A stretch of DNA of 64,000 bases from Spirochaetota bacterium (GTDB taxonomy: Bacteria > Spirochaetota > UBA4802 > UBA5368), in contig DATIKU010000014.1 of the NCBI GenBank assembly GCA_035477215.1, forward strand, positions 62,001 to 126,000. Direction: 5' to 3'. The number at the start of each line of letters is the position of its first letter. Within the stretch, counting starts at the first letter, position 1. A program made the translations under genes and the position numbers. Of this stretch, positions 36,493 through 49,420 are shown one piece after another. A model generated the notes under the pieces. The model worked only from the letters and a program-made list of their open reading frames with translations. It did not search any database and was not told where the DNA came from.

Positions 36493-38496
36493 ATGAATCA
36501 GAAACCTGGCGTGTGCACTTTCTGCGGGACGGGTTGCGGCCACTTCATCGGTACCGAAAACAACAGAATCACCCGGGTCTATCCCTCCCAGAACCATCCC
36601 ATAGGCAAAGGTCGATTATGCGTGCGGGGCTGGAACATCCACGAACTCCTCGATACGCCGGAACGAATAAAAAAACCGCTGGTGCGCGCGGACGGGGGCT
36701 TTAAGGAATCATCGTATGATGACGCGGTGGCGCGTCTGGTGGACACTCTAAAGAAATATCCTCCCGAATCGATCGGTTTTCTTGCATCGCCGCGCTCCTC
36801 GAACGAGGAACAGTATCTGTTGATGAAGCTCGCGCGCGCCGCGTTCAAAACGAACAACATCAGCCTCGATAGCGATTCCGGGCACCGGGCGAGCCTCAAC
36901 GTACTCCACACGGGAACGGGAATGGCGGGCATGCTCGGTTCGGTCGAAGAAATACGGAAGTCCGAATTTATCCTTGTGGCGGGGATCGACATCACCCGCC
37001 AGAATCCCATCATCGGAAGCGAGATCCACATGGCCGAGCGCGCCGGCGCCATGGTGGTGACCCTTGACAGCCGACGCACGCAGATTGCGAAGCTCTCGAA
37101 GAAATTTTTACAGGTAAAACCCGGCGCCAATAAACTGGCGATCCTCGCGCTCGCCAAAACCATTTACGATGAGAACCTCTCCGACGCCGCCTTTTTGCGC
37201 TCGCACACCGAGGGATTCGAAAAATTCCGCCACGCCTTCGGGCTTCTCCCCGACAACGAAGTGTCCGACAGGACCGGCATCCCGGCCGACGAAATCAAAG
37301 CCGTGGCCCGCGACCTCGCGAAAGCGAGGTCGGCGATGGTGTTTTTCGCATCCGGCATCTCCGGCCTCGACGAGGACACGATCGGCTATATTTACAACCT
37401 CTTCCTCATGGCCGGCAAGGTCGGAAAGGAAGGATGCGGCGTCAATCCCGTCGCGGGCCTGAATAACCTCCAGGGCGGGTACGACATGGGGCTCGCCCCC
37501 GATCTTCTTACCGGGTTCCAGCCGCTCGCCGACGTGGCGGCGAAGAAGTTCTCCGCGGAATGGAAGACCGACGTGCCGTCCTCGCCGGGCGCGCCCATTT
37601 ATGAAATGCTGTCGGACCGGTCATCGAAACTCAAAGCGCTTGTTGTGGTCGACCACGACGAAGGAATCGTTAGATACGCTGACGCCATCGGCAAGCTCGA
37701 TTTCATCGCCTATATCGGCGCCTTTAAAAACGCGTTCGCCGATTACGCGCATGTCGTGCTCCCAATAGCCACCTATGTGCAGGAGGACGCCACCTTTACC
37801 AACACCGAGCGCCGCATACAGTTTTCGATGAAGAAGATCGAGCCCGAGGACGGGCTGCTCCCCGGCTGGAAGCTCTATTCCATGATAGCCGGGAAGGCGG
37901 GCCAGTCCTGGAAGTACGCGAAGGTCTCCGACGTAATGGACGAGATCGCGCGGCTCACCCCCGCCTATGCCGGCGTTTCACACGCGAAGCTTTCGGGGGC
38001 GTTCGGGTTGCAGTGGCCTGTCGATGAAAAGAATCCGCGTGGAACCAAGCGGTTCGATGTCGCGAAAGCGGGCCGCAAGCTTTCCTTCTACAGGGTCAGC
38101 GATGTCTTCGAGATGCCGGCGGCGAAGGAACAGTTTCCCTTTCTGCTGATGGTCGGCAAGGCGCAGCATTTCTGGCACCAGAACAATCTCATGAAAAAGA
38201 CGCATATTCCCATGCGCGAATATAACGCGACGCTTTTGGACTACCCGGAAGGCTACGTCGAAATCTGCCCGCAAAGCGCGAAGGAGATCGGCGTGCGCGA
38301 CCACTGGCCGGTGCGCGTGGTATCGCCGCACGGCGAAATGCGGGTGTCGGCCAGGGTTTCGGACGACGTCAAGCCATACACCGCTTACGCGCCGTATTTC
38401 GTCCAGGAAATGATATCGCGCTTTTTGCTGGGACACACGGAGGTTCTCAGGCAGGGAGAAGACGCAACCATTCCAGTAAGGATTGAGAAGGTATGA
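36493..38496 (+). CDS. Molybdopterin-oxidoreductase (FdhF-like) subunit lacking catalytic Sec/Cys
   Basis: 667 residues from ATG 36493 (GTGGAG upstream). It has the formate-dehydrogenase alpha plan: an N-terminal [4Fe-4S] site CTFCGTGC (residues 8-15) plus Cys at GRLCVRG, an MGD-binding core, and a C-terminal domain with GKAQHFWHQNNL. Aligned by eye without gaps to E. coli FdhF (TNN ... 16 residues ... H), the Sec140 position is Gly130 (codon GGG at 36880), His141 is kept (His131), and Arg333 in VNPVRG is Ala321 (VNPVAG). It is therefore unlikely to be a normal formate dehydrogenase; it may be a NuoG-like electron-carrying scaffold. It overlaps the next gene by four bases. Confidence 0.85.
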   Translation: MNQKPGVCTFCGTGCGHFIGTENNRITRVYPSQNHPIGKGRLCVRGWNIHELLDTPERIKKPLVRADGGFKESSYDDAVARLVDTLKKYPPESIGFLASPRSSNEEQYLLMKLARAAFKTNNISLDSDSGHRASLNVLHTGTGMAGMLGSVEEIRKSEFILVAGIDITRQNPIIGSEIHMAERAGAMVVTLDSRRTQIAKLSKKFLQVKPGANKLAILALAKTIYDENLSDAAFLRSHTEGFEKFRHAFGLLPDNEVSDRTGIPADEIKAVARDLAKARSAMVFFASGISGLDEDTIGYIYNLFLMAGKVGKEGCGVNPVAGLNNLQGGYDMGLAPDLLTGFQPLADVAAKKFSAEWKTDVPSSPGAPIYEMLSDRSSKLKALVVVDHDEGIVRYADAIGKLDFIAYIGAFKNAFADYAHVVLPIATYVQEDATFTNTERRIQFSMKKIEPEDGLLPGWKLYSMIAGKAGQSWKYAKVSDVMDEIARLTPAYAGVSHAKLSGAFGLQWPVDEKNPRGTKRFDVAKAGRKLSFYRVSDVFEMPAAKEQFPFLLMVGKAQHFWHQNNLMKKTHIPMREYNATLLDYPEGYVEICPQSAKEIGVRDHWPVRVVSPHGEMRVSARVSDDVKPYTAYAPYFVQEMISRFLLGHTEVLRQGEDATIPVRIEKV

Positions 38497-39560
38497 CCAT
38501 GTTCCTTATCAAGAAAGCCGACGTCGGTAACATCGCACAGGAGCTCAGCCGGGAATACCAGATATATGGCCCCATGATCGAAAAGGGCTCGGGGCAGACC
38601 TTCTTCGACCGGGCACAGGACCTGGCTGAAATCAACCTCTCGGCCCCAATCCCGTCAAATCCGCCCAAGTCGGTCGTGTTTCCGCAGATGGAGCGCATCC
38701 TCTCGTATGAATATGACAGGGCGAAAAACGCGGTAAAGATGGAGCCCGATTACAAAATCGAACCCAGGGCGCTGGTGGGGCTTCGCCCCTGCGACCTGGC
38801 CGGCATACTCTGCCTGGACCGTTTCTTCATGGGGCAGGAATTCGTCGACGAGGTGTACCTGAACCATCGCAAGAAGATGTTCATCGTCACCAATACATGC
38901 GTCGCTCCTTTTAAACAATGCTTCTGCGTATGCACCGACAGCGGGCCCGCGGCGGGCGAGGGCTACGACCTCAACCTTACCGACCTCGGCAAGGAATGCC
39001 TGGTCGAGGTCGGCTCAGAAAAGGGGACGGCCCTGGCCGCGAAGCTCGCCCTCAAGCCGGCGAACGACTCCCACCTCGCGATGAAAAAGGAAAAGGTCGA
39101 CAAATCCATCGCGATGTTCGAGGGCATTGCCGTCGATTCCAAGGCGTGGATTTCGCGCGTCATGAACCGCGTCACCACCGGCTTCGTGAAGGAGGACGTG
39201 TGGGAGTATGTCGGCGACCAGTGTTTCGAGTGCGGCGCCTGTACCTTCGTGTGCCCTTCGTGCTCATGCTTCAACATCGCCGACGTAAACAACCCGGAGT
39301 GCGCCGGCTGCGCTGACCGGCTGCGCACATGGGACTCGTGCTCCTACGAAGGGTATTCGCGCATGGCGGGCGGCCACAATCCCCGCAAACCCGTTGAAGA
39401 CCGCCGCAACAAGAGGTTTTTCTGCAAGCTGTCATACTCGCAGATGAAGAAATATCTGCGGCCGGGCTGCGTAGGATGCGGCCGGTGCGCCTGGGTGTGC
39501 CCCGGCGATATCGGTCTGCCGAACGTCGTGACCTATGTCAGAAGGGAAATAACGAGGTAG
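38493..39560 (+). CDS. AsrA/sulfhydrogenase-beta-like 4Fe-4S protein
   Basis: 355 residues. The middle has RPCDLAGILCLDRFF, and the C-terminal part has two ferredoxin-type cluster motifs: ECGACTFVCPSCSCF (about 247-261) and GCVGCGRCAWVCPGDIGLPN (about 328-347), with more cysteines between (ECAGC, WDSC). This is the plan of anaerobic sulfite reductase subunit A and the beta subunit of soluble sulfhydrogenases. It passes electrons between the flavin subunit encoded next and the rest of the complex. The start overlaps the upstream stop (ATGA); the third codon ATG 38499 is an alternative. Confidence 0.85.
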   Translation: MTMFLIKKADVGNIAQELSREYQIYGPMIEKGSGQTFFDRAQDLAEINLSAPIPSNPPKSVVFPQMERILSYEYDRAKNAVKMEPDYKIEPRALVGLRPCDLAGILCLDRFFMGQEFVDEVYLNHRKKMFIVTNTCVAPFKQCFCVCTDSGPAAGEGYDLNLTDLGKECLVEVGSEKGTALAAKLALKPANDSHLAMKKEKVDKSIAMFEGIAVDSKAWISRVMNRVTTGFVKEDVWEYVGDQCFECGACTFVCPSCSCFNIADVNNPECAGCADRLRTWDSCSYEGYSRMAGGHNPRKPVEDRRNKRFFCKLSYSQMKKYLRPGCVGCGRCAWVCPGDIGLPNVVTYVRREITR

Positions 39561-39569
39561 GGGAAGCGT

Positions 39570-40421
39570 ATGAGCCAGGTATTGAACATCCAGAACGGAA
39601 AGATAGTCACCGTACCCGAGGTCGCCACGATCGAGGAGATCAGGGACGAGATTCGCGAGGTGAAGACCTTCTACCTTTCGATCGACAACAAGGAAATATG
39701 GAATAATTTCAAGTACAAGTCCGGGCAGTTCATCATGTGCACGATATTCGGCGCGGGCGAGTTCGCCGTGTCGCTGCCGCCCAGCCCCGAGAACGATCGC
39801 TTTCACATAACGGTGCGCACTGTCGGAAAGGTCACCAGCGCCCTCCACGGGCTGAAGCCCGGCGACAAGGTGGGCCTCCGCGGACCGTTTGGCAACGGCT
39901 TTCCCTTCGAGGAATTCAAGGGCAAGAACCTGGTTTACGTGGCGGGCGGCATCGGTCTTATCCCGCTCCGCTCGTCCATCGTCCACGCCCTTCAGCACAA
40001 GAAGGATTTCGGACGGGTGCTGGTGCTTCATGGCGCGCGCACGCCCGACGACCTCATGTATAAGGAGAACATCAAGGAGTGGCAGAGCTTCGAGGGTTTC
40101 GAGACCTATATAACGGTCGACGCGCCCACGCCGGACTGGAAGGGCGAGACGGGATTCGTTCACACCCTTTTCGACAAGGCGAACCTTCCCGTCGAGAACA
40201 CCATCGCATTCGTGTGCGGTCCGCCTGTCATGTTCAACACGGTGATCGGCGAGCTCCTGAAACGAGGCCTCCCGGACGAAAATATCTACTCGACGCTTGA
40301 GAGGCACATGAAATGCGGCATCGGCAAATGCCAGCACTGCGCCGTGGGAAGAACGCTTGTCTGTACGGACGGGCCGGTATACACCTACCGGCAGATAAAA
40401 ACCCTCGGCGAGGAGATATAG
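39570..40421 (+). CDS. AsrB/sulfhydrogenase-gamma-like FAD/NAD(P)-binding protein
   Basis: 283 residues of the ferredoxin-NADP reductase type. It has an FAD-binding barrel (about 25-120), an NAD(P)-binding part with YVAGGIGLIPLRSSI (about 125-139) and VCGPPVMFN (about 215), and a C-terminal [2Fe-2S] motif CGIGKCQHCAVGRTLVC (about 250-266). Such subunits link NAD(P)H to an iron-sulfur chain. Here it gives the hydrogenase a likely pyridine-nucleotide port. GGGGAAG precedes the ATG, nine bases after the previous gene. Confidence 0.9.
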   Translation: MSQVLNIQNGKIVTVPEVATIEEIRDEIREVKTFYLSIDNKEIWNNFKYKSGQFIMCTIFGAGEFAVSLPPSPENDRFHITVRTVGKVTSALHGLKPGDKVGLRGPFGNGFPFEEFKGKNLVYVAGGIGLIPLRSSIVHALQHKKDFGRVLVLHGARTPDDLMYKENIKEWQSFEGFETYITVDAPTPDWKGETGFVHTLFDKANLPVENTIAFVCGPPVMFNTVIGELLKRGLPDENIYSTLERHMKCGIGKCQHCAVGRTLVCTDGPVYTYRQIKTLGEEI

Positions 40422-40466
40422 CCTCGGCGTGCGGGCGGACTGCCTGGGATGGAAGAACGGAGAGCG

Positions 40467-40964
40467 ATGAGCATCGTCGATGACATACGAAAAGCACTTT
40501 CGGGCAGGGCCTGTATCGTGGGCATGGGAAACACACTGCTTGGAGACGACGGCGCGGGCGTGATTCTTGTCGAAGCTCTCCGGGCCGCCGGCGCGGGCGG
40601 GGCCCACCTGGTAAATGCCGAGGACATCATCGAGAGCCACGCCTTCGAGATCGCCGACGGAGACTGGGACAGGGTCATTGTGATCGACGCGGTGCGCTTC
40701 GGCGGCAGGCCCGGCGATGTGATGTTCGGAGCCTTCTCCGAGATCGGCGACCTCCTGAATGACTACTCGACCCACAAGCTTTCGCTGCGGCTTTCGGAAT
40801 CGATCTGGCGAGGGCGGGGCAAGGAAACCTATCTCCTCGGTATCGAGCCCGGGAACCTGAATTTCGGTGAGGGGCTTTCGCAGGCCGTAAAAATGAGCGC
40901 CGACACACTCTGTAAAATACTTGTTGGAGCAGTTAAACAGCACCCCGAAGGAGCATGTGTATGA
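40467..40964 (+). CDS. Hydrogenase maturation protease (HycI/HyaD family)
   Basis: 165 residues from ATG 40467 (GGAGAG upstream). It cleaves the C-terminal tail of the [NiFe]-hydrogenase large subunit after Ni insertion. Family features: ACIVGMGNTLLGDDGAGV (about 12-29), with the Asp/Glu Ni-sensing residues in GNxLxxDDG, a further Glu in NAEDIIESH (about 46), and VIVIDAVRFGGRPGD (about 63-77). The substrate is almost surely the large subunit encoded at 42.85 kb, whose C-terminal extension matches HycE-type pre-proteins. Its stop overlaps the next start (ATGA). Confidence 0.9.
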   Translation: MSIVDDIRKALSGRACIVGMGNTLLGDDGAGVILVEALRAAGAGGAHLVNAEDIIESHAFEIADGDWDRVIVIDAVRFGGRPGDVMFGAFSEIGDLLNDYSTHKLSLRLSESIWRGRGKETYLLGIEPGNLNFGEGLSQAVKMSADTLCKILVGAVKQHPEGACV

Positions 40965-42817
40965 GTGACCTTTATGGAAAACTGATTCTCGCGATGGCGA
41001 TACTTCTCTGTTCGGCGGTAGTTGTGCCCTTAATCGCCGAGAAGCGCAGGCTGGCGGGCTGGCTCAACTTCGTCTTTGTCGCCGTTGCGGGGGCCATCCT
41101 TCTTTCGATCAGCTACAGCGTCATCTTTGTGAACTCCCTCCAGGCGCAGCTCGTATCGGTGGGGCCGCTCGATATGTACTTTCTCCTGGACAGCTTCTCC
41201 GGGTTCTTCCTGGGGATCATCGCCCTCATGGCCATCGTCAGCGCCTTCTACTCGATCGAGTACATGGAGCACTACGACGATTACGGCCTGCGGAGCTACT
41301 ACGCGAATTACCCGATTTTCGTGCTGGGCATGGCGGGGATCGTCACCGTGGACGACCTCACCACCGGTTTCACCATCGCCTGGCAGGCTATGACCATCAC
41401 CAGCTATTTCCTGGTGCGATTCGAGCACCGGAAGCCCGAAATCGTCAGGGCCGCCAACAAGTACCTCATTCTCATGCAGCTTGCCTGGGTATTCATCGTC
41501 GTCGCGGCCTTCATCGCCGGCACCTCGATGGGAGATTCGATCCATGCCGTTACCCGCAGTCTGGGGAACACGCACGGCGCGGTTCCGTACATTGTCTACG
41601 GGCTCCTCTTCCTCGGCTTCGGCTTCAAGGCGGCGGTGTTCCCCTTCGGCCAGATGTGGCTGCCCGACGCGCACTCCATCGCCCCGTCTCCGATAAGCGC
41701 GCTCCTTTCGGGCGTGATGATAAAAACCGGCGTGTATGGGATAATCCGCACCTTCTTCTGGATGGTGCCGCACGCCGAGACCTTTCACTTCAGCGGCGCC
41801 TTCTGGGGCGTGCTCATCGCCTCCTTCGGGGTGGTGACGCTCTTTATCGGCACCGTGCAGTCCATGAAACAGAGCCATTCCAAGCGGCTGCTCGCTTATT
41901 CATCGATAGGGCAGGTCGGCTACATCATCCTCGGTATCGGCGCGGCGCTCTTCATGGTGAGCGCCGAAAGCGCGTCGCTTAAGATGCTCGGACTCATCGC
42001 CCTCGTCGGCGTAGTTTATCATATACTCAACCACGCGGTCTTCAAGGGACTGCTCTTTTTAACCAGCGGCAGCGTCCTCTACAGCACCGGGACCAAGGAC
42101 CTCAACAAGCTCGGCGGGCTCATCAACCTCATGCCGGTCACCGCGCTGGTTGCGGGCATTTCGTCCCTCTCGATCTCCGGTGTGCCGCCCTTCAGCGGGT
42201 TCGCGAGCAAGTGGACGCTGGTGTCGACTTCGCTTCTCGCCGGTAGCGAGGTGCTCTTCCTGGTGATCTTCGGAATCATCGCGCTCTTTACCAGCGCCGT
42301 GACGCTTTCATGCTACGTAAAATTTTTCGGTATGACCTTCACCTCGGCGGGCGCCGAGTGGGGAGTCGGCAAAAAGGTGAAGGAAGTGCCCGCGGGAATG
42401 CTCATCCCGAAGCTCTTCCTCGCGGCGCTCTGCCTGCTCCAGGGGCTCATCCCCTTCTTCTACTTTCAGACGATCATCGGCATTTTCGCGAATTCGGGAG
42501 GGTCGATGGTCTCGGCGGTGTTCAGGAACCTGAATGTCCAGGACCACGTCTTCAACTCGGCCATGGGCGTATCGGTGGGCATTCCGGGGCTTTCGTCGGT
42601 GTCGTCGATCGCGGTTCCGGCGGTTCTCCTGATAATCTTCGCGGCGGCGTTTGGCTTTGCCGCCGTGCTGAAGCGCGCGGGCGGATCGAAGGAGCGCGAG
42701 GTTCCCACCTGGCTCTGCGGCTACCAGGACCTGCACGACAAGACCAGGTACCGCGACAAGAGCATGTTCTCCGCGCTTAAAAACCTGCTGCATTGGACCG
42801 GCGGGAACGTAAAGTAA
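40961..42817 (+). CDS. HycC/NuoL-like antiporter-type membrane subunit
   Basis: About 618 residues with 14-16 hydrophobic helices, in the Mrp/NuoL/HycC proton-conducting family. The conserved core is intact: FGFKAAVFPFGQMWLPDAHS (about 224-243, with the buried Lys), PSPISALLSGVMIKTGVYG (about 246-264), SKRLLAYSSIGQVGYIILG and NHAVFKGLLFL. The complex can therefore be expected to pump protons or Na+. The start at ATG 40961 has GAAGGAG at 7 bases and overlaps the protease stop; ATG 40955 is too close to that site. Only one such antiporter-like subunit is encoded, as in E. coli Hyc (FHL-1), not Hyf. Confidence 0.9.
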   Translation: MSDLYGKLILAMAILLCSAVVVPLIAEKRRLAGWLNFVFVAVAGAILLSISYSVIFVNSLQAQLVSVGPLDMYFLLDSFSGFFLGIIALMAIVSAFYSIEYMEHYDDYGLRSYYANYPIFVLGMAGIVTVDDLTTGFTIAWQAMTITSYFLVRFEHRKPEIVRAANKYLILMQLAWVFIVVAAFIAGTSMGDSIHAVTRSLGNTHGAVPYIVYGLLFLGFGFKAAVFPFGQMWLPDAHSIAPSPISALLSGVMIKTGVYGIIRTFFWMVPHAETFHFSGAFWGVLIASFGVVTLFIGTVQSMKQSHSKRLLAYSSIGQVGYIILGIGAALFMVSAESASLKMLGLIALVGVVYHILNHAVFKGLLFLTSGSVLYSTGTKDLNKLGGLINLMPVTALVAGISSLSISGVPPFSGFASKWTLVSTSLLAGSEVLFLVIFGIIALFTSAVTLSCYVKFFGMTFTSAGAEWGVGKKVKEVPAGMLIPKLFLAALCLLQGLIPFFYFQTIIGIFANSGGSMVSAVFRNLNVQDHVFNSAMGVSVGIPGLSSVSSIAVPAVLLIIFAAAFGFAAVLKRAGGSKEREVPTWLCGYQDLHDKTRYRDKSMFSALKNLLHWTGGNVK

Positions 42818-42851
42818 TTAAATAGGCCATCCTTATTAAACGAGGTGCGGT

Positions 42852-44525
42852 ATGCCAGGGATTGAAGAGATCAAAAGCGGTTTAAATAAAAAGTTCAAGA
42901 ATGCCGTCGTCGCCGTTGAGGAGCAAAACCCGACGAGGCTGTTCGTGGATATAAAAAGCGCAAAGGTGCGCGAGATTTCAAACGAGATCATCGCCATGGG
43001 CGGGCGCTACCTTGTGAGCATCGGTTGCGACAATATCAGCCGCGACGGGACGCTGGGCATGATCCACACCTTCGGCTTCGACAAGGACGGTATTTTTTTG
43101 TCCCTGCGCACCTCGGTCCCCGAATCGAAGCCCGTGATGGATTCCATCACGCCGGACATCCCCAACGCCGGATGGTCCGAGCGCGAATTCATGGATCTCC
43201 TGGGCATGAAGTTCACCGGGCACCCCAAGCCCAAACGGCTCATCCTCGCCGACGACTGGCCCGAAGGCGTGCATCCGCTCCGAAAGGACATCCCCTGGAA
43301 CCTCATGCCGCCGGCCGCCGAGGACGTGGCCTATCAGCTCGACGAGTGCCCCGAGGGGTGCAGCATCGTCCCGGTAGGCCCCTATCACCCCACGCTGCAC
43401 GAGCCGGCGCACTTTGCCGTATTCGTGGACGGGGAGACCATAAAGGGTAGCGATTACCGGGGCTTCATGACGCACCGCGGCATAGAGAAGCTCTGCCAGA
43501 CGCAGCTTACGTATAACGAGATACCCTTTGTTGCCGAGCGCATCTGCGGTATCTGCGGCTCGGTGCACGCCACTTCCTATTCGCAGGCCGTGGAGCTGGC
43601 CGGCGGTATAAAGATATCGCGCAGGGCCGAGTACATCCGCACCATCATGCTCGAGATCGAGAGGGTTCACTCGCACCTCCTGTGGCTCGGGGTCGCCGGT
43701 CACCTCATCGGTTTCGACACGGTGTTCATGCAGTCGTGGCGCATACGCGAGCCCATCATGTGGCTGGGCGAGCGCATCACCGGCAACAGGAAGACTTACG
43801 GCATGATCGTCATCGGCGGCGTACGCCGGGACATCACCCCCGAAATAAAAGAAGACATACTGAATGTGATAGGCAAGGTGGAGGAGGAGCTCCTCGTCGT
43901 CCAGAAGGCCATACAGGGCGACTCGGCCATCCACAGAAGGACCAAGGGCGTCGGCTATGTTTCAACCGCCGACACGGTGCTCTGGAGCCTGGTCGGGCCC
44001 GTTGCTCGAGCAAGGAACGTCGATATCGACGTACGGCGCGACTATCCGTACGCCGCGTACGACGAAATGAAGTTCGACGTGCCGGTCTTCGATTCCAACG
44101 ATGTATGGGCTACACTGCTGGTGCGCCTGCTGGAGACCTTCGAATCGATCAAGATAATACGGCAGTGCCTCGATAAAATGCCGAACGACGGTCCGATACT
44201 CACCGAGCTCGAGGCGCCGATCCCGGCCCTTAAGCATGGCCTGGCAGCCGTCGAGGCGCCCCGCGGCGAAGTGGTGCACTATGTCATCACCGGCGAGAAA
44301 AACGCCCCGGAGCGCTGGCGCGTGCGCGCCCCGACGTATCCGAATCTCCAGGGCGTGCCGCTCATGCTTCTGGGCAACCAGCTCGCCGATGTGCCGATCA
44401 TCATCGGGAGCATCGATCCGTGCTTTTCATGCACTGACCGGATGGAGATAGTGGACCTGCGATCGGGCGCCGCGAAAACGGCCTCCCGGCGCGAGCTTGA
44501 AGAGCTTTCACGGAATAAACGATAG
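42852..44525 (+). CDS. Group 4 [NiFe]-hydrogenase large subunit (NuoCD/HycE-like)
   Basis: 557 residues. The N-terminal 170 are a NuoC-type domain (WSEREFMDLLGMKFTGHPKP). The rest is the catalytic NuoD/HycE-type domain. Both pairs of Ni ligands are present: ERICGICGSVH (about 229-239, CxxC) and DPCFSCTDR (about 522-530, CxxC), so it is a real hydrogenase, not a complex I NuoD. The residues after DPCFSCTDR give about 28 C-terminal amino acids, probably removed by the HycI-type protease two genes upstream. The start follows GAGGTG. The reaction is reversible proton reduction at the cytoplasmic side of the membrane. Confidence 0.94.
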   Translation: MPGIEEIKSGLNKKFKNAVVAVEEQNPTRLFVDIKSAKVREISNEIIAMGGRYLVSIGCDNISRDGTLGMIHTFGFDKDGIFLSLRTSVPESKPVMDSITPDIPNAGWSEREFMDLLGMKFTGHPKPKRLILADDWPEGVHPLRKDIPWNLMPPAAEDVAYQLDECPEGCSIVPVGPYHPTLHEPAHFAVFVDGETIKGSDYRGFMTHRGIEKLCQTQLTYNEIPFVAERICGICGSVHATSYSQAVELAGGIKISRRAEYIRTIMLEIERVHSHLLWLGVAGHLIGFDTVFMQSWRIREPIMWLGERITGNRKTYGMIVIGGVRRDITPEIKEDILNVIGKVEEELLVVQKAIQGDSAIHRRTKGVGYVSTADTVLWSLVGPVARARNVDIDVRRDYPYAAYDEMKFDVPVFDSNDVWATLLVRLLETFESIKIIRQCLDKMPNDGPILTELEAPIPALKHGLAAVEAPRGEVVHYVITGEKNAPERWRVRAPTYPNLQGVPLMLLGNQLADVPIIIGSIDPCFSCTDRMEIVDLRSGAAKTASRRELEELSRNKR

Positions 44526-44535
44526 AGGAAAGCGT

Positions 44536-45435
44536 ATGGACATCCTGATAGCCGTGATCAACGTATTGATTTTCCTGGCGCTCGCCCCGCTCTTCGAGGG
44601 CGTTGTGCGAAAGCTCTATGCCAAGGTGCAGTCCCGCATGGGCCCGCCGATCTTCCAGCCTTATTACGATCTCCTGAAGCTTCTGGGCAAAGAGACGCTT
44701 TCGGCCGGCAACTGGGCGTTCAGAATCGCGCCCATGATGGCGCTCGCGTCAATTATAACGGCGGTGTCGCTTATGCCGCTCGGCTACACTCCCGGGTTCC
44801 TCACGCAGTACGGGGACATCATCACCATCATCTATCTTCTTGCGCTTGGCGGGGTGTCGGTGCTGTTGGGGGCGCTTTCCAGTAAAAACACCTATGCCAT
44901 GGTGGGGGCGAGCCGGGAGATGGTCACCATGATCATGGTGGAGCCGGTGCTCGCCATGACCCTCATCCTTGGCGCGCTCAAGGCGAAGAGCCTCGCTATC
45001 GACGCCAGTATAGCGAGTTCGCTCGGCGGGTCCTACGGGTTCTCGATGGTGCTTATGCTCGTCGTCTTCCTGATGGCGCTCCAGGCCTTCGTGGCCAGAC
45101 AGCCCTTCGACATCGCAGAGGCCGAGGTCGAGATAATGGAAGGGCCCTTCATCGAGTACAGCGGCCCCGGGCTCGCCCTCTTCAAGTACTATATGATGAT
45201 CAAGCAGATGTTCTACGCGGCGCTGTTCGTTGCGGTGTTTGTGCCGCTCGTCTATACGGGGTATTTCTTCGTCGATGTGGCGGTTCAGCTTGTCGGGATA
45301 CTGGTGGTCTTCGTGCTCATCGCCCTGCTCGGCTCGACCAATCCGAGGCTGCGCATCGACCAGGCGGTGAAGTATTACGCGATATTGATCGCCGCATCGC
45401 TCGTGGCCGTCGGGTTGTCGGTATATGGAATATAG
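44536..45435 (+). CDS. HycD/NuoH-like membrane subunit
   Basis: 299 residues from ATG 44536 (AGAGGAAAG upstream); the frame is open to 44497 but that overlaps the large subunit. It has eight hydrophobic helices. Hallmarks of the NuoH/HycD family: RMGPPIFQPYYDLLKLLGKE (about 35-54) and AEVEIMEGPFIEYSGPGLAL (about 196-215), which bind near the quinone-like or proton path. It anchors the hydrophilic arm of the hydrogenase to the membrane. It begins eight bases after the large-subunit stop, and is followed by an unusual gap with two hairpins. Confidence 0.92.
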   Translation: MDILIAVINVLIFLALAPLFEGVVRKLYAKVQSRMGPPIFQPYYDLLKLLGKETLSAGNWAFRIAPMMALASIITAVSLMPLGYTPGFLTQYGDIITIIYLLALGGVSVLLGALSSKNTYAMVGASREMVTMIMVEPVLAMTLILGALKAKSLAIDASIASSLGGSYGFSMVLMLVVFLMALQAFVARQPFDIAEAEVEIMEGPFIEYSGPGLALFKYYMMIKQMFYAALFVAVFVPLVYTGYFFVDVAVQLVGILVVFVLIALLGSTNPRLRIDQAVKYYAILIAASLVAVGLSVYGI

Positions 45436-45460
45436 CCGATTGAATCCCCTCAGCCTCCGG

Positions 45461-45487
45461 CGGCTCCCCTTTGATAAAGGGGAGCCG
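45461..45487. repeat. 12-bp perfect hairpin repeat in hydrogenase operon
   Basis: Arms CGGCTCCCCTTT (45461-45472) and AAAGGGGAGCCG (45476-45487) around GAT. The 166-base gap it occupies separates the NuoH-like and ferredoxin genes and contains a second related hairpin. The CCCTTTG...AAAGGG spelling is that of short dispersed palindromic repeats seen in many genomes, so this is probably a mobile or REP-like remnant. It may also set relative mRNA levels within the operon. Confidence 0.7.
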
Positions 45488-45515
45488 CTGAGAAGGGACT
45501 GGTTGATCGACAGGA

Positions 45516-45536
45516 GCCCCCTTTGCCAAAGGGGGC
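45516..45536. repeat. 9-bp perfect hairpin repeat in hydrogenase operon
   Basis: Arms GCCCCCTTT (45516-45524) and AAAGGGGGC (45528-45536) around GCC, 28 bases after the first hairpin. The two stems share the CCCTTT/AAAGGG core and a three-base loop, so they are likely copies of one element. Confidence 0.65.
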
Positions 45537-45601
45537 GGGCCGGAGGGCGGGGGATTTGATTATGCAGGTCGGTTTAAATCTTGAACCCAAGGAGAAACAC
45601 C

Positions 45602-46147
45602 GTGTGGCTGACAAGTAAGATAAAGCAGGTTTTCATGGTGGCAAAACCCGGCGTGGTGACGCTCCGGTATCCGTTCGAGCCGCGCCCGGCTCCAGCGAAT
45701 TTCAGGGGGCAGCCATACTGGGATCACCACAAGTGCATAGGCTGTGGCGGGTGCGCGGCGCACTGCCCGGCGCGCACGATACTGGTGCGTGACCTCTGTC
45801 AGGAGCTTCGGGTCATGTTATATGACGGGTCGCGCTGCACCTACTGCGCGCGCTGCGCCGACGTGTGCCCCGAGGACGCCATCACCATGACCGAGAGCTT
45901 TGAACTTGCGACCGGAGACAAGGAAGATATCAACGAAACCATGGAGCTGTTCATGGCCACTTGTCAGCGCTGCGGGCGCTGTTACGACCACGAGACAACA
46001 AACGTGATCGACCGCATGTCGAGAATCGGCTTCAAGTATGACAGCATCGAGATGAGGGCCGTGGTGCCGGTTGGCTCCGAGCAGTTCGATATGAAACTGT
46101 ACGAAAAGACCGAAAAAATCAAAAGGCCGGAAAAGGCGGGAGAGTAG
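45602..46147 (+). CDS. HycF/NuoI-like polyferredoxin subunit
   Basis: 181 residues from GTG 45602, preceded by AAGGAGA; the upstream TTG 45581 lacks a site. Two classical [4Fe-4S] motifs are present: CIGCGGCAAHCP (about 46-57) and CTYCARCADVCPEDA (about 80-94). A third, shortened Cys set, CQRCGRCYD, lies near 122-130, not usual in NuoI. The opening FEPRPAPANFRGQPYWDHHK is the typical NuoI/HycF N terminus. It carries electrons from the AsrA-like part toward the small subunit. Confidence 0.9.
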   Translation: MWLTSKIKQVFMVAKPGVVTLRYPFEPRPAPANFRGQPYWDHHKCIGCGGCAAHCPARTILVRDLCQELRVMLYDGSRCTYCARCADVCPEDAITMTESFELATGDKEDINETMELFMATCQRCGRCYDHETTNVIDRMSRIGFKYDSIEMRAVVPVGSEQFDMKLYEKTEKIKRPEKAGE

Positions 46148-46149
46148 CC

Positions 46150-46680
46150 ATGCTTGCTAATCTGATCAAAAAGGCGTTCCTAAAATCGCTGTGGGTGTAT
46201 CACTGCAATGCGGGGGCGTGTAACGGCTGCGACATCGAGATCCTGAACGTCCTCACTCCCTATTACGATATCGAACGGTTCGGCATGAAGCTCGTGGCCT
46301 CTCCCCGGCACGCCGACGTGATGCTGATTTCCGGCGCGGTGACGAGGCCCACGCTTCCCATCGTCAAGAAGGCGTATAACGCCATGCCCTCGCCCAAGCT
46401 GGTCTTCGGCATTGGTTCGTGCGCCGTGGGCGGCGGCTGCTGGTTCGACTGCTACAATGTAACCGGCGGTGCGGACAAGGCCGTTCCCGTCAACTACTAC
46501 ATTCCCGGCTGCCCGCCGCGCCCCGAGGCGATCATTTACGGCGTTGCCCTCGCGCTGGGCCTGGTCGAGAAGAAGGTCGCGCCAATAGAGCTCAAACAGA
46601 TGGAGTTCCCGATCGATATGTACGAGCGCAACAAGGCCTGGGAAGAGCGAAACGTAATTTACAAATTAATTAAAGATTAG
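46150..46680 (+). CDS. Group 4 hydrogenase small subunit (HycG/NuoB-like)
   Basis: 176 residues. It holds the proximal [4Fe-4S] cluster next to the NiFe site: CNAGACNGCD (19-28), GIGSCAVGGGCWFDC (about 93-107) and GCPPRPEAI (about 123-131). The absence of the second and third clusters of soluble small subunits is normal for group 4 enzymes. It starts two bases after the ferredoxin stop and ends the structural set of nine genes. Confidence 0.93.
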   Translation: MLANLIKKAFLKSLWVYHCNAGACNGCDIEILNVLTPYYDIERFGMKLVASPRHADVMLISGAVTRPTLPIVKKAYNAMPSPKLVFGIGSCAVGGGCWFDCYNVTGGADKAVPVNYYIPGCPPRPEAIIYGVALALGLVEKKVAPIELKQMEFPIDMYERNKAWEERNVIYKLIKD

Positions 46681-46803
46681 AAGATGAAAGATTATAAGAT
46701 TTCGGATGGCATGATGACCGGTTCTCCGGAAGGGGGCTTCACGCTTAACAAGTCTTCGAATCTTGAATCTTTAATTCGCAATCCATAATTTTTGGAGCGT
46801 GAC

Positions 46804-47205
46804 ATGGCAAAGAAGATACTTTTAGTGGACGACGACAGCGACCTGGTGGCGAGCCTTTCGCAGGCGCTTATGATGAATGGTTACGACGTATCCATAGCCA
46901 ATAGCGGGGCCGAAGGCCTTGTGAAGCTCCTCGAGGTGCGGCCGGACCTCATGATACTCGACGTTATGATGGAAACCGACACGGCAGGTTTTGAGATAAC
47001 CTATCAGATTCGAAGCCAGAGACCGACCTCCAGGTACAAGGATGTCAGGGAGACGCCCATCGTCATGCTGACGGCGATCAACCAGGTCACCAACTCCAGG
47101 TTCTCGCTTAGCGAGGGGCAGAGTTTTCTTCCCGGCGTCAATGATTTCCTCACCAAGCCGGTCAAAATTGACGAACTCCTGGGAAAAGTGAAAAAGTTAC
47201 TATAG
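46804..47205 (+). CDS. Single-domain response regulator (CheY-like)
   Basis: 133 residues from ATG 46804. Receiver domain only: KKILLVDDDSDLVASLSQAL (3-22, acidic pocket), phospho-acceptor in PDLMILDVMM (about 47-56, Asp53), and FLTKPVKIDELLGKVKKLL (Lys near the end). A short insert (SRYKDVRETP) sits between strands 3 and 4. No output domain is present. It lies 123 bases downstream of the hydrogenase small subunit and may be co-transcribed, but the kinase partner is not in the window. Confidence 0.85.
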   Translation: MAKKILLVDDDSDLVASLSQALMMNGYDVSIANSGAEGLVKLLEVRPDLMILDVMMETDTAGFEITYQIRSQRPTSRYKDVRETPIVMLTAINQVTNSRFSLSEGQSFLPGVNDFLTKPVKIDELLGKVKKLL

Positions 47206-47318: not shown

Positions 47319-48029
47319 ATGAAAATTCGGCATATAATTTTCGTTCTTCTGGTTGCGGTGGTCACAATCTCCTGGTATAACAGCCAGAAATTGTACCGCT
47401 GGTATCTGACGGCCTATTACCAGCGTTTCCTCGGCGAGGACAGGGGTAAATCGATAGAAAAGGCCCGTGTTCTTTTCAGGGAAGAGCGGTATGACGATCT
47501 GCTCGGATACATCGATCGCCTGATGACACTTTACCCGGCCGATTACGACCTTCGCCGCTTGAAGGGGCTTTCCCTCATCAAAACGGGACGCAGATCGGAG
47601 GGGGCCCGGATGGTGATCGCGTCCCTCAGGAACAACGAGGATCTCAATGCCATCGGGAGTGTCATCGAGATTCTTTTCGAGGAACGGGAGTACGCTGACC
47701 TGGCGGATATCCTTTCCCGCCACCGCGTATCAGGAAATTCATTCCTCCTATACGTACATGGCGTGTCGCTTTACCATGCGGGCCGCCATGCCGAGGCCGA
47801 GCGGCGCCTGGTGGAGGCGGGCAGGGCCGGAAAGCGCGACTACGACACGCTGTTCCACCTCGGCCTTGCGCAAGAGAAGAACGGTAGAATCAACGAGGCA
47901 CTCGCTACGTTTGAAAGCGCGTACGAGCTCAATCCGGTCCGCACCGAGGCCAGGGGGGCCATGGTGCGCCTTTATCGCATAACAAAACAATACCACAAGG
48001 CGGAAAAGCATTTTGGGAGGTCTCCATGA
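47319..48029 (+). CDS. Membrane-anchored TPR protein
   Basis: 236 residues from ATG 47319. One N-terminal hydrophobic segment (IIFVLLVAVVTISWYNS) is followed by TPR units: ALLxYIDRLMTLYPADYDLR-type helices, VSLYHAGRHAEAERRLVEAG (about 155) and GLAQEKNGRINEALATFESA (about 190). It may be anchored in the inner membrane. It overlaps the start of the acyl-CoA synthetase gene (ATGA). Function unknown. Confidence 0.72.
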   Translation: MKIRHIIFVLLVAVVTISWYNSQKLYRWYLTAYYQRFLGEDRGKSIEKARVLFREERYDDLLGYIDRLMTLYPADYDLRRLKGLSLIKTGRRSEGARMVIASLRNNEDLNAIGSVIEILFEEREYADLADILSRHRVSGNSFLLYVHGVSLYHAGRHAEAERRLVEAGRAGKRDYDTLFHLGLAQEKNGRINEALATFESAYELNPVRTEARGAMVRLYRITKQYHKAEKHFGRSP

Positions 48030-49420
48030 TCGATCGTTTTTTCCATCCCGACGGTGTGGCCATAATCGGCGCCACCGACAACGCGGCCAAGGGAGGCTAC
48101 CATATTCTGCGAAACACCCTGGCCGGATACCGGGGGCGTGTGTATCCTGTCAATCCGAGGTACGGAGAGATCCTCGGTACCTCGTGTTACCCCGATGTTG
48201 CCTCAATCCCGGAAAACTTCGACCTTGCCATTTATTTTATCCCGGCGAAATATCTGCCCGGCACAATCCGCGAATGCGCGAAAAAGGGAGTGAAGGCGAT
48301 CATCATCGAATCCGCGGGTTTTTCGGAGGTGGGCGAGGAGGGCAGGAGGCTGCAGACAGAGTCGGTCAGCCTGGCCCGGAGCTTCGGCATACGCCTGTGG
48401 GGGCCTAATTGCATGGGTCTTCTCGACGGGCATTCAAGAAACGTCTTTTCGTTTATGTATACGGACAGGTGGATGACGCTCATGAAGCCGGGAAAGGTTT
48501 CGCTCATCGTGCAGAGCGGCATGCTTTCCGCGGGTTTTCTCATGATGATCCTGGAGCGCGGCGGCATGGGCATCGCGAAGGTGTGTTCGATCGGCAACAA
48601 GTGCGACGTCAATGAGACGGAGCTCATGGAATACCTTGTCGCGGACGAGGAAACCGGCGTTATCGGCTGTTATCTCGAATCGATCGTCGACGGGCGGAAG
48701 TTCCTCGAGATCGCGCGCTCTACATCAAAGCCGATCATTGTACTGAAGGCGGGAAGGAGTGAACAGGGGGCGAAGGCGGCGGTGAGCCACACCGCAAGCC
48801 TTTCCGGCTCGGCGGCGGTGCACGAGGGGGCGTTCCGCCAGGCCGGCATCGTTCAGGTGTATGATGTACACGAGCTCATGGACTTCGCGCGCGGATTTTC
48901 AAAAATAACGCCGTGCGGCTCGGACGGCGGCACCGCGGTCATTACCTTCTCGGGCGGGGCCGGCATCGTGACCTCGGACCTTCTGGCGGATTGGGGAGTT
49001 AAGCTCGCCGAGTTCGGGCCCGAGACGATAAGCGCGCTTGCGGAGGTGTTTCCCCCGTGGATGAGGCCCTCGCACCCGGTAGACGTATGGCCGGCGGTTG
49101 AATTAAACGGCCTTGAGCTCGTGTATAACAGAGCCTTCGAAGCGGTCATTAAAGACCCGAATGTCGATTCGGTCATCATTGAATCGATCGCATGGAACCT
49201 GTCGAGCCCCGATTATCTGGTTACCGCCGGCGAGATGCAGAAGCGCTATCGAAAGCCGGTCGCCCTGTGGCAGATCGGCCCCAGCGAGGCGAATGAGCGC
49301 TATCGCTCTGTTGCCGAGGAGGCGGGGATCCCGGTCTTCGCCGAGATCAGCCGATGTGCCGCGTTCATCGCCGGCGTGAAGGCCCATTCGAGGAAGAAAG
49401 CAGGGATTAAAACCTCTTGA
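48026..49420 (+). CDS. ADP-forming acyl/acetyl-CoA synthetase alpha-type protein
   Basis: 464 residues, the size of a free alpha subunit. ADP-forming acetyl-CoA synthetase makes ATP from acyl-CoA, Pi and ADP in anaerobes. The CoA-binding domain opens PDGVAIIGATDNAAKGGYHI (8-27), and the ligase domains follow. The phosphohistidine of the archaeal enzyme corresponds to His255 in AAVSHTASLSGS (251-262). The ATP-grasp beta subunit is not in this window, so either it is encoded elsewhere or the protein is a related CoA-binding ligase-like protein. GGAGG precedes the start, and the gene is coupled to the TPR gene. Confidence 0.82.
   Translation: MIDRFFHPDGVAIIGATDNAAKGGYHILRNTLAGYRGRVYPVNPRYGEILGTSCYPDVASIPENFDLAIYFIPAKYLPGTIRECAKKGVKAIIIESAGFSEVGEEGRRLQTESVSLARSFGIRLWGPNCMGLLDGHSRNVFSFMYTDRWMTLMKPGKVSLIVQSGMLSAGFLMMILERGGMGIAKVCSIGNKCDVNETELMEYLVADEETGVIGCYLESIVDGRKFLEIARSTSKPIIVLKAGRSEQGAKAAVSHTASLSGSAAVHEGAFRQAGIVQVYDVHELMDFARGFSKITPCGSDGGTAVITFSGGAGIVTSDLLADWGVKLAEFGPETISALAEVFPPWMRPSHPVDVWPAVELNGLELVYNRAFEAVIKDPNVDSVIIESIAWNLSSPDYLVTAGEMQKRYRKPVALWQIGPSEANERYRSVAEEAGIPVFAEISRCAAFIAGVKAHSRKKAGIKTS

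Follow-up and report, generated by a model that had tools for sequence, protein, structure and literature searches.

What kind of enzyme is encoded when a formate dehydrogenase-like molybdenum (Mo) protein and two AsrA- and AsrB-like electron-transfer subunits lie in one row with the subunits of a membrane-bound [NiFe] hydrogenase? The question is raised by a block of nine consecutive genes, all on the + strand, at positions 36493-46680 of a 64,000-nucleotide stretch of DNA (the window, to which all coordinates refer) from a Spirochaetota draft genome (G000; 3.57 Mb, 95% complete). The cluster is a conserved, widespread variant of the group 4 [NiFe] hydrogenases, and with a probability of roughly 0.7 it encodes a reversible ion-coupled NAD(P)H:H2 oxidoreductase containing an inactive Mo subunit derived from a formate dehydrogenase (FDH). 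The identities and the unbroken order that a first, sequence-only reading had given to the nine genes are borne out by family matches. The end that it had set for the block has to be moved, as a receiver gene at 46792-47205 belongs to it too. The features are given below, with the matches on which each is based (Sec, selenocysteine; FAD, flavin adenine dinucleotide).

36493..38496, + strand: FDH-like Mo subunit, non-catalytic (Sec140 to Gly, Arg333 to Ala), N-terminal [4Fe-4S] site kept (TIGR01591, residue alignments, fold model)
38493..39560, + strand: AsrA/HydB-like iron-sulfur electron-transfer subunit (TIGR02910, ShyB/HydB)
39570..40421, + strand: AsrB/HydG-like FAD/NAD(P)/[2Fe-2S] subunit, a diaphorase (ShyC/HydG, TIGR02911)
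40449..40964, + strand: HycI-type hydrogenase maturation protease (TIGR00072, above cut-off)
40955..42817, + strand: HycC-like antiporter subunit (hydrogenase 4 subunit B, Proton_antipo_M)
42852..44525, + strand: HycE-like [NiFe] large subunit, extended by a C-terminal tail beyond DPCFSCTDR (Complex1_49kDa/30kDa, NiFeSe_Hases)
44542..45435, + strand: HycD/NuoH-like membrane subunit (NADHdh; the start is the analyst's choice within a frame open from 44497)
45581..46147, + strand: HycF-like subunit with two [4Fe-4S] clusters and an extra CxxCxxC (NuoI-like match)
46150..46680, + strand: HycG-like [NiFe] small subunit (NuoB-like match)
46792..47205, + strand: stand-alone response-regulator receiver protein, tenth gene of the conserved block (PF00072)

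Is such a row of genes more than an accident of one genome? With the HycE-like protein as query against 296 genomes of the phylum, 52 genomes gave a match at 1e-60, and the stretches around the best 31 relatives of the 52 (67-97% identity) served as the Spirochaetota locus set. From a wider collection the best 80 of 586 relatives were taken; 33 non-Spirochaetota loci that group with the window type (L109 counted in) form the outside set, L080-L083 and L087 having been left out as duplicates of loci that the analysis already covered. The nine genes stand in the window order in 28 of the 31 Spirochaetota loci, and the three that remain end at contig edges, with the Mo gene on another contig of those genomes. 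Outside the phylum the same order is found at 22 of the 33 loci. Seven of the eleven others are cut by contig ends (L095, L101, L104, L106, L109, L115 and L138), L089 gave no HycI match, L112 has AsrAB without a Mo gene, and HycD precedes HycE in L108 and L111, as it also does in the contig-cut L138. The receiver gene follows HycG at all 31 Spirochaetota loci and at 15 of the 33 others. Loci with the degenerate Mo gene occur in Spirochaetota, Aminicenantota, Acidobacteriota, Pseudomonadota, Verrucomicrobiota, Gemmatimonadota and Armatimonadota, and include that of a cultured isolate, Chitinibacter tainanensis DSM 15459 (L088), a bacterium described as aerobic (PMC3083699). Because the order recurs in so many genomes, the block is not a chance arrangement. 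The sequence-only reading had suggested looking for this order elsewhere, and had taken a frequent absence of the first three genes as evidence against itself; one real loss of the Mo gene is seen within the clade (L112), the other gaps being contig ends.

The trees describe the same unit. A first HycE tree was built from 98 of the 117 HycE rows and a careful one from 70. In the latter the window-type loci form a single clade of 45 rows (bootstrap 95, Shimodaira-Hasegawa-like approximate likelihood ratio test 91), which spans at least seven phyla and adjoins formate hydrogenlyase (FHL). When the rows of this tree were labelled by architecture (66 scored, four contig-cut rows excluded), the label 'degenerate Mo plus AsrAB' needed two changes, for example one gain and one loss. 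The HycE of E. coli lies outside the 45-row clade with L069, L114, L141 and L145, where L069 is an FHL locus of the same phylum with a Sec FDH and L114 is a Thermococcus locus with a Cys FDH, both without AsrAB. A separate HycE clade (Omnitrophota, Elusimicrobia and others) carries AsrAB in another gene order and has no Mo gene in the stretch except in L142, where an intact Cys FDH is located near AsrA, again in a different gene order and outside the window-type clade. An intact Sec or Cys FDH in the place of the Mo gene, which had been named beforehand as a refuting case, is therefore seen only outside the clade (E. coli FHL, L069, L114 and L142). One genome, G186, holds both a window-type cluster (L058) and, separately, the FHL-like locus with the Sec FDH (L069).

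A tree of the Mo proteins (58 rows, with L108 and ten near-identical rows excluded) puts all 42 degenerate proteins on one side of a branch (support 99) and the 14 intact FDHs apart. Pairwise distances of the Mo protein correlate with those of HycE (r 0.956, 51 sequences) and of AsrA (r 0.938), which shows co-inheritance and not contact, since relatedness alone yields a high r.

What, then, is the Mo protein? It matches the formate dehydrogenase alpha profile TIGR01591 with an E-value of 2.8e-131 and 438.8 bits, under the cut-off of 666. Its ATG is at 36493; the analysis used the frame from 36490, so that its own residue numbers run one higher, and Sec140 and Arg333 are numbered as in E. coli FdhF. 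In an alignment with FDHs that include E. coli FdhF, the Sec140 position is Gly in all 27 full-length Spirochaetota Mo proteins, that of the window included, and none of them has Arg at position 333, which is occupied by A, T, S or V. The loss of the active-site residues that had been read from the window sequence thus extends throughout the phylum set. Whether every member carries the Gly/Ala version had been put forward as a check; in 26 further members outside Spirochaetota, the Sec column holds G in 11, Y in 9, V in 2, and W, D, A and C in one each. The 14 intact FDHs share 78 invariant positions. At 23 of these the residue has gone from most of 41 degenerate proteins, Lys44, Arg138, Sec140, His181 and Arg333 being examples, whereas 27 persist in 90% or more of the degenerate proteins, the four [4Fe-4S] cysteines among these; this comparison left out L115, L123 and NuoG in addition to the rows excluded from the Mo-protein tree. 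The structure model (mean predicted local distance difference test score 75.5, the loops around the cluster and the pocket being modelled with low confidence) has a predicted fold nearest to that of FDH-H (1aa6; Z 35.8, root-mean-square deviation 3.0 over 575 residues), and its fold matches are FDH-like and other Mo-enzyme folds, with arsenite oxidase among them; that the matches listed include no NuoG entry carries no weight. Judged by these residues, the Mo protein is a non-working FDH whose active site has been lost across the clade.

The protein is nonetheless under purifying selection. The ratio of non-synonymous to synonymous substitution rates between congeners is 0.059-0.079 for the Mo protein and 0.038-0.062 for HycE, and because this ratio is low and close to that of HycE, the Mo protein is being maintained. 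A pseudogene was considered and rejected on the same low ratio and on the open frame of the full-length Spirochaetota copies. The earlier proposal that the subunit is a scaffold may say too little, since nearly every member retains the [4Fe-4S] site. In the Armatimonadota loci L108 and L111 the Mo-like genes match the profile only in pieces, as if middle parts had been lost, and degeneration may be going further there.

Loss of the active site bears directly on whether the cluster could be a formate hydrogenlyase. That identity was rejected, as the site is lost and HycB is absent. A version of it, in which the Mo subunit oxidises formate by way of an unusual active site and AsrAB forms a side branch, is very improbable: the nearest solved structure of HycE is that of E. 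coli FHL (7z0s; E 3.2e-118, 399 bits), the model suggests that the entire FDH fold is kept and most hosts make the molybdenum cofactor, but Sec or Cys and Arg333 are gone from the whole clade, HycB is missing from the nine genes, and the Mo subunit is retained in hosts without moaA, moaC and moeA. The hosts in question are G147 and G163 (97 and 98% complete), with no moaA above cut-off, no moaC and no moeA, whose PF00384 proteins are this Mo subunit alone, plus one NuoG in G163. A Verrucomicrobiales genome (G300, completeness not stated) likewise has no moaA above cut-off and no moeA. On account of these gaps at least some hosts, so far as the draft genomes go, keep the Mo subunit without making the cofactor; that the subunit is empty elsewhere does not follow from them. 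C. tainanensis has this Mo protein and a NuoG as its PF00384 set, with no FDH of that family. Several relatives carry Sec FDHs (one in-frame TGA) elsewhere in the genome, and in G000 no other FdhF-like FDH was found at E<1e-30 with the window Mo protein as query. Formate cannot be the general donor of the cluster.

A second possibility starts from the same protein. In arsenite oxidase the pyranopterin cofactor is held without a protein ligand, and the Mo subunit might bind pyranopterin in this manner and act on another substrate, with AsrAB and the hydrogenase as two electron outlets. The presence of moaA in most hosts and of arsenite oxidase among the structural matches speaks for this. It is nevertheless distinctly unlikely, as the Sec position varies between G, Y, W, V, D and A from one subclade to another, unlike a catalytically constrained site, and G147 and G163 are without cofactor synthesis.

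If electrons do not come from formate, where do they enter? The nearest solved chains of AsrA and AsrB are the beta and gamma subunits of Pyrococcus furiosus sulfhydrogenase 1 (9nez_B, E 9e-36, and 9nez_C, E 1.8e-56). Residue counts across the cluster proteins, in which L109 was excluded, show 15 Cys of AsrA conserved in all sequences covering them (59/59 or 60/60) and the [2Fe-2S] Cys of AsrB, C249, C254, C257 and C265, in 61/61. HycB, the four-cluster ferredoxin of FHL, was not found among the nine genes. With AsrA and AsrB sulfhydrogenase-like and HycB absent, NAD(P)H is the most likely source of the electrons. Of the two couplings first envisaged, to NAD(P)H or to ferredoxin, the former is the better supported, the diaphorase being nearest to an NADPH sulfhydrogenase, and ferredoxin is less so. 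An electron-confurcating or ferredoxin-linked enzyme, in which the AsrB flavin and AsrA clusters join NAD(P)H and ferredoxin for H2, appears unlikely. It would suit the Cys of AsrA, which are more than a simple two-cluster carrier has, and the Rnf of the same genome, which connects ferredoxin and NADH (subunits C, D, G and E are encoded on the same contig of G000), but the AsrA/B relatives belong to a sulfhydrogenase whose module uses NADPH, and the block has no second flavoprotein or bifurcating partner.

The matches to TIGR02910 and TIGR02911, and the ability of sulfhydrogenases to reduce S0, could instead point to a complex that reduces sulfite or sulfur by means of AsrAB. This is scarcely credible, given that the siroheme subunit AsrC of the AsrABC sulfite reductase is not among the nine genes, to which the search was confined, and that the nickel-iron Cys and the tail of HycE are retained.

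The hydrogenase core itself is intact. In HycE, C232 and C235 are conserved in 64/64 and C524 and C527 in 61/61; in HycG, C24, C27 and C91 are found in 62/62 and C121 in 60/61. HycF retains its cluster Cys, and D33, D34, D80 and H109 of HycI, shared with E. coli HycI, are present in 58/58. hypD occurs in 32 of 32 genomes, in answer to the earlier question of whether hyp genes lie elsewhere in the genome. The four nickel-iron Cys, together with the NuoH-like (NADHdh) and antiporter-like (Proton_antipo_M) membrane subunits, place the cluster among the group 4 [NiFe] hydrogenases. A hydrogenase-related complex without nickel-iron (Ehr) was rejected on the invariance of all four Cys, which Ehr, having no nickel-iron ligands, does not share. 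According to the FHL structure paper, a Cys quartet of E. coli HycF binds an ion near the contact with FdhF (PMC9474812), and by analogy the extra CxxCxxC of the cluster HycF may mean that the docking place for the Mo-like protein has been kept.

For the membrane arm, the channel residues of HycC were compared with E. coli HycC and with NuoL/M/N. In the E. coli protein, as described in the same paper, Leu208 takes the place of the Lys of transmembrane helix (TM) 7, Glu391 occupies a position that is Lys in other group 4 enzymes, and the path is interrupted by Gln285 and Ala230 (PMC9474812). The cluster HycC has Lys in place of Leu208 in 57/58, of Glu391 in 58/58 and of Gln285 in 52/58, and Ser or Thr in place of Ala230 in 55/58. 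From these residues ion coupling through the membrane arm is plausible. In relatives L102, L105, L107, L124, L140 and L149 another antiporter-like subunit is encoded between the HycF and HycG genes, a variant with a possible greater capacity for ion pumping.

It is against this background that an ion-coupled NAD(P)H:H2 oxidoreductase can be proposed. Electrons would pass reversibly from NAD(P)H to the FAD and [2Fe-2S] of AsrB, to the [4Fe-4S] clusters of AsrA, through the clusters of HycF and the cluster of HycG, and to the NiFe site in HycE, the reaction being coupled via HycD and HycC to movement of H+ or Na+. AsrA and AsrB would replace HycB and FdhF of FHL, and the Mo protein, an inactive FDH descendant, would serve the input arm as a structural component that may also carry one [4Fe-4S] cluster, in a role comparable to that of NuoG in complex I. 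We infer that the products assemble as one complex; NAD or NADP may be the donor, and H+ or Na+ the ion. NAD(P)H-driven release of H2, at low H2 or against an ion gradient, is somewhat the likelier direction.

Several observations weigh against this proposal. In 47/58 HycC proteins Gln replaces the Glu that the antiporter fold has on TM5, so that pumping is not assured, and the idea that HycC has the full set of pump residues proved too strong. The Cys of AsrA exceed the need of two clusters, and ferredoxin could dock there. L112 carries AsrAB in a different order with no Mo gene. In the Mo protein itself, L102 has Cys at the Sec column, but with Arg333 replaced by Pro, and L115 combines Arg at the 333 column with Val at the Sec column. 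Of the 32 Spirochaetota genomes that carry the cluster, 28 have moaA above cut-off and 27 have moaC, and moaA passes the cut-off in 10 of 11 others as well; because moaA is so widespread the loss of cofactor synthesis is shown for a few hosts only. Finally, G000 encodes a Sec formate dehydrogenase-N, from which it follows that formate is used somehow in the host.

The host has other hydrogen and Mo enzymes of its own. G000 encodes an uptake-type hydrogenase and a soluble one of Vhu/Hox-like type, whose subunits include HoxF/U-like proteins; its PF01512 matches are RnfC and the HoxF-like protein alone, so that a separate NuoF was not seen. The idea that G000 is without any FDH was rejected, given the Sec FDH-N and a QrcB-like protein. 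The latter, a molybdopterin-family protein of 654 aa (L179:1143-3107, G000:C8; 335 bits, the cut-off being 440), is perhaps another non-catalytic Mo-family subunit. A second receiver-only gene (L163:7418-7792) follows a protease-like gene of the Vhu/Hox-like hydrogenase operon, and the receiver proteins are possibly a hydrogenase-linked signalling or assembly part. Downstream of the block, genes for an acetate-CoA ligase alpha-like and a tetratricopeptide repeat protein (48026-49420 in the window) are shared by at least five of the 31 loci (L035, L038, L039, L040 and L044), all from the host's own family.

How does the cluster relate to systems already described? With E. coli FHL (Hyc/FdhF, group 4a; 7z0s/7z0t) it has in common HycC, D, E, F and G, HycI, an FDH-fold subunit and the C-terminal tail of HycE. 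Unlike FHL, it has no HycB, its FDH site is dead, AsrA and AsrB are added and HycC holds Lys residues that E. coli lacks; with no catalytic Sec or Cys FDH, and HycE outside the E. coli HycE clade, it departs from the FHL type of group 4a. The P. furiosus NADPH sulfhydrogenase 1 (9nez) provides the nearest solved relatives of AsrA and AsrB, but its core is that of a soluble group 3b enzyme, whereas HycE and HycG here are group 4-like and come with a membrane arm. A related arrangement is the 'enigmatic' group 4 hydrogenase of Saganbacteria RX5A, reported by Matheus Carnevali et al. (2019) with asrA, asrB, cooF, antiporter-like subunits and a Mo oxidoreductase that could not be classified as an FDH, and with relatives in Zixibacteria and Omnitrophica (PMC6349859). 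Compared by that description, as far as the accessible text gives it, asrA, asrB, the antiporter-like subunits and the Mo oxidoreductase are common to both, with cooF as an extra there; the accessible text makes no mention of the loss of the active site or of the present spread over phyla. The Omnitrophota loci examined here differ: their genes run AsrA-AsrB-HycD-HycG-HycE, they fall in a different HycE clade, and the stretch examined contains no Mo gene. No other description of the arrangement was found in the literature searched, most subscription journals being outside that search. Among the HydDB groups, 4g is listed as of unknown function (PMC5037454).

Complex I, too, holds an inactive molybdoenzyme-like subunit, the history of which is debated. 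The cluster shares with complex I (Nuo) an antiporter-like and NuoH-like arm, an NAD(P)H input module and an inactive Mo-family subunit (NuoG), but it keeps all four nickel-iron Cys, ligands that complex I has lost and in whose place it has a quinone site, has no NuoE/F in the block and has AsrB in the place of NuoF. The chances are evenly balanced that in it the plan of complex I was built a second time, independently; an FHL-like ancestor would have recruited AsrAB and the FDH would have died as a NuoG-like, cluster-bearing relic while the nickel-iron site stayed active. A separate origin of the two Mo relics fits the view of the FHL authors that FdhF and NDUFS1 were acquired by their respective complexes in independent events (PMC9474812).

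If this is true, the cluster would be a living model of a step commonly postulated for the origin of complex I, and since the FDH died in a hydrogenase that is still active and has a different NAD(P)H module, both the sequence of the steps and the function of the relic subunit could be tested on living enzymes. Where genes of this cluster carry the annotation 'formate dehydrogenase' or 'sulfite reductase' in these bacteria, the name is probably wrong. If the proposed reaction is correct, the cluster genes would encode an ion-coupled NAD(P)H:H2 enzyme that forms a class of its own in at least seven bacterial phyla, and many anaerobic bacteria would gain an ion-coupled exchange of NAD(P)H for H2.

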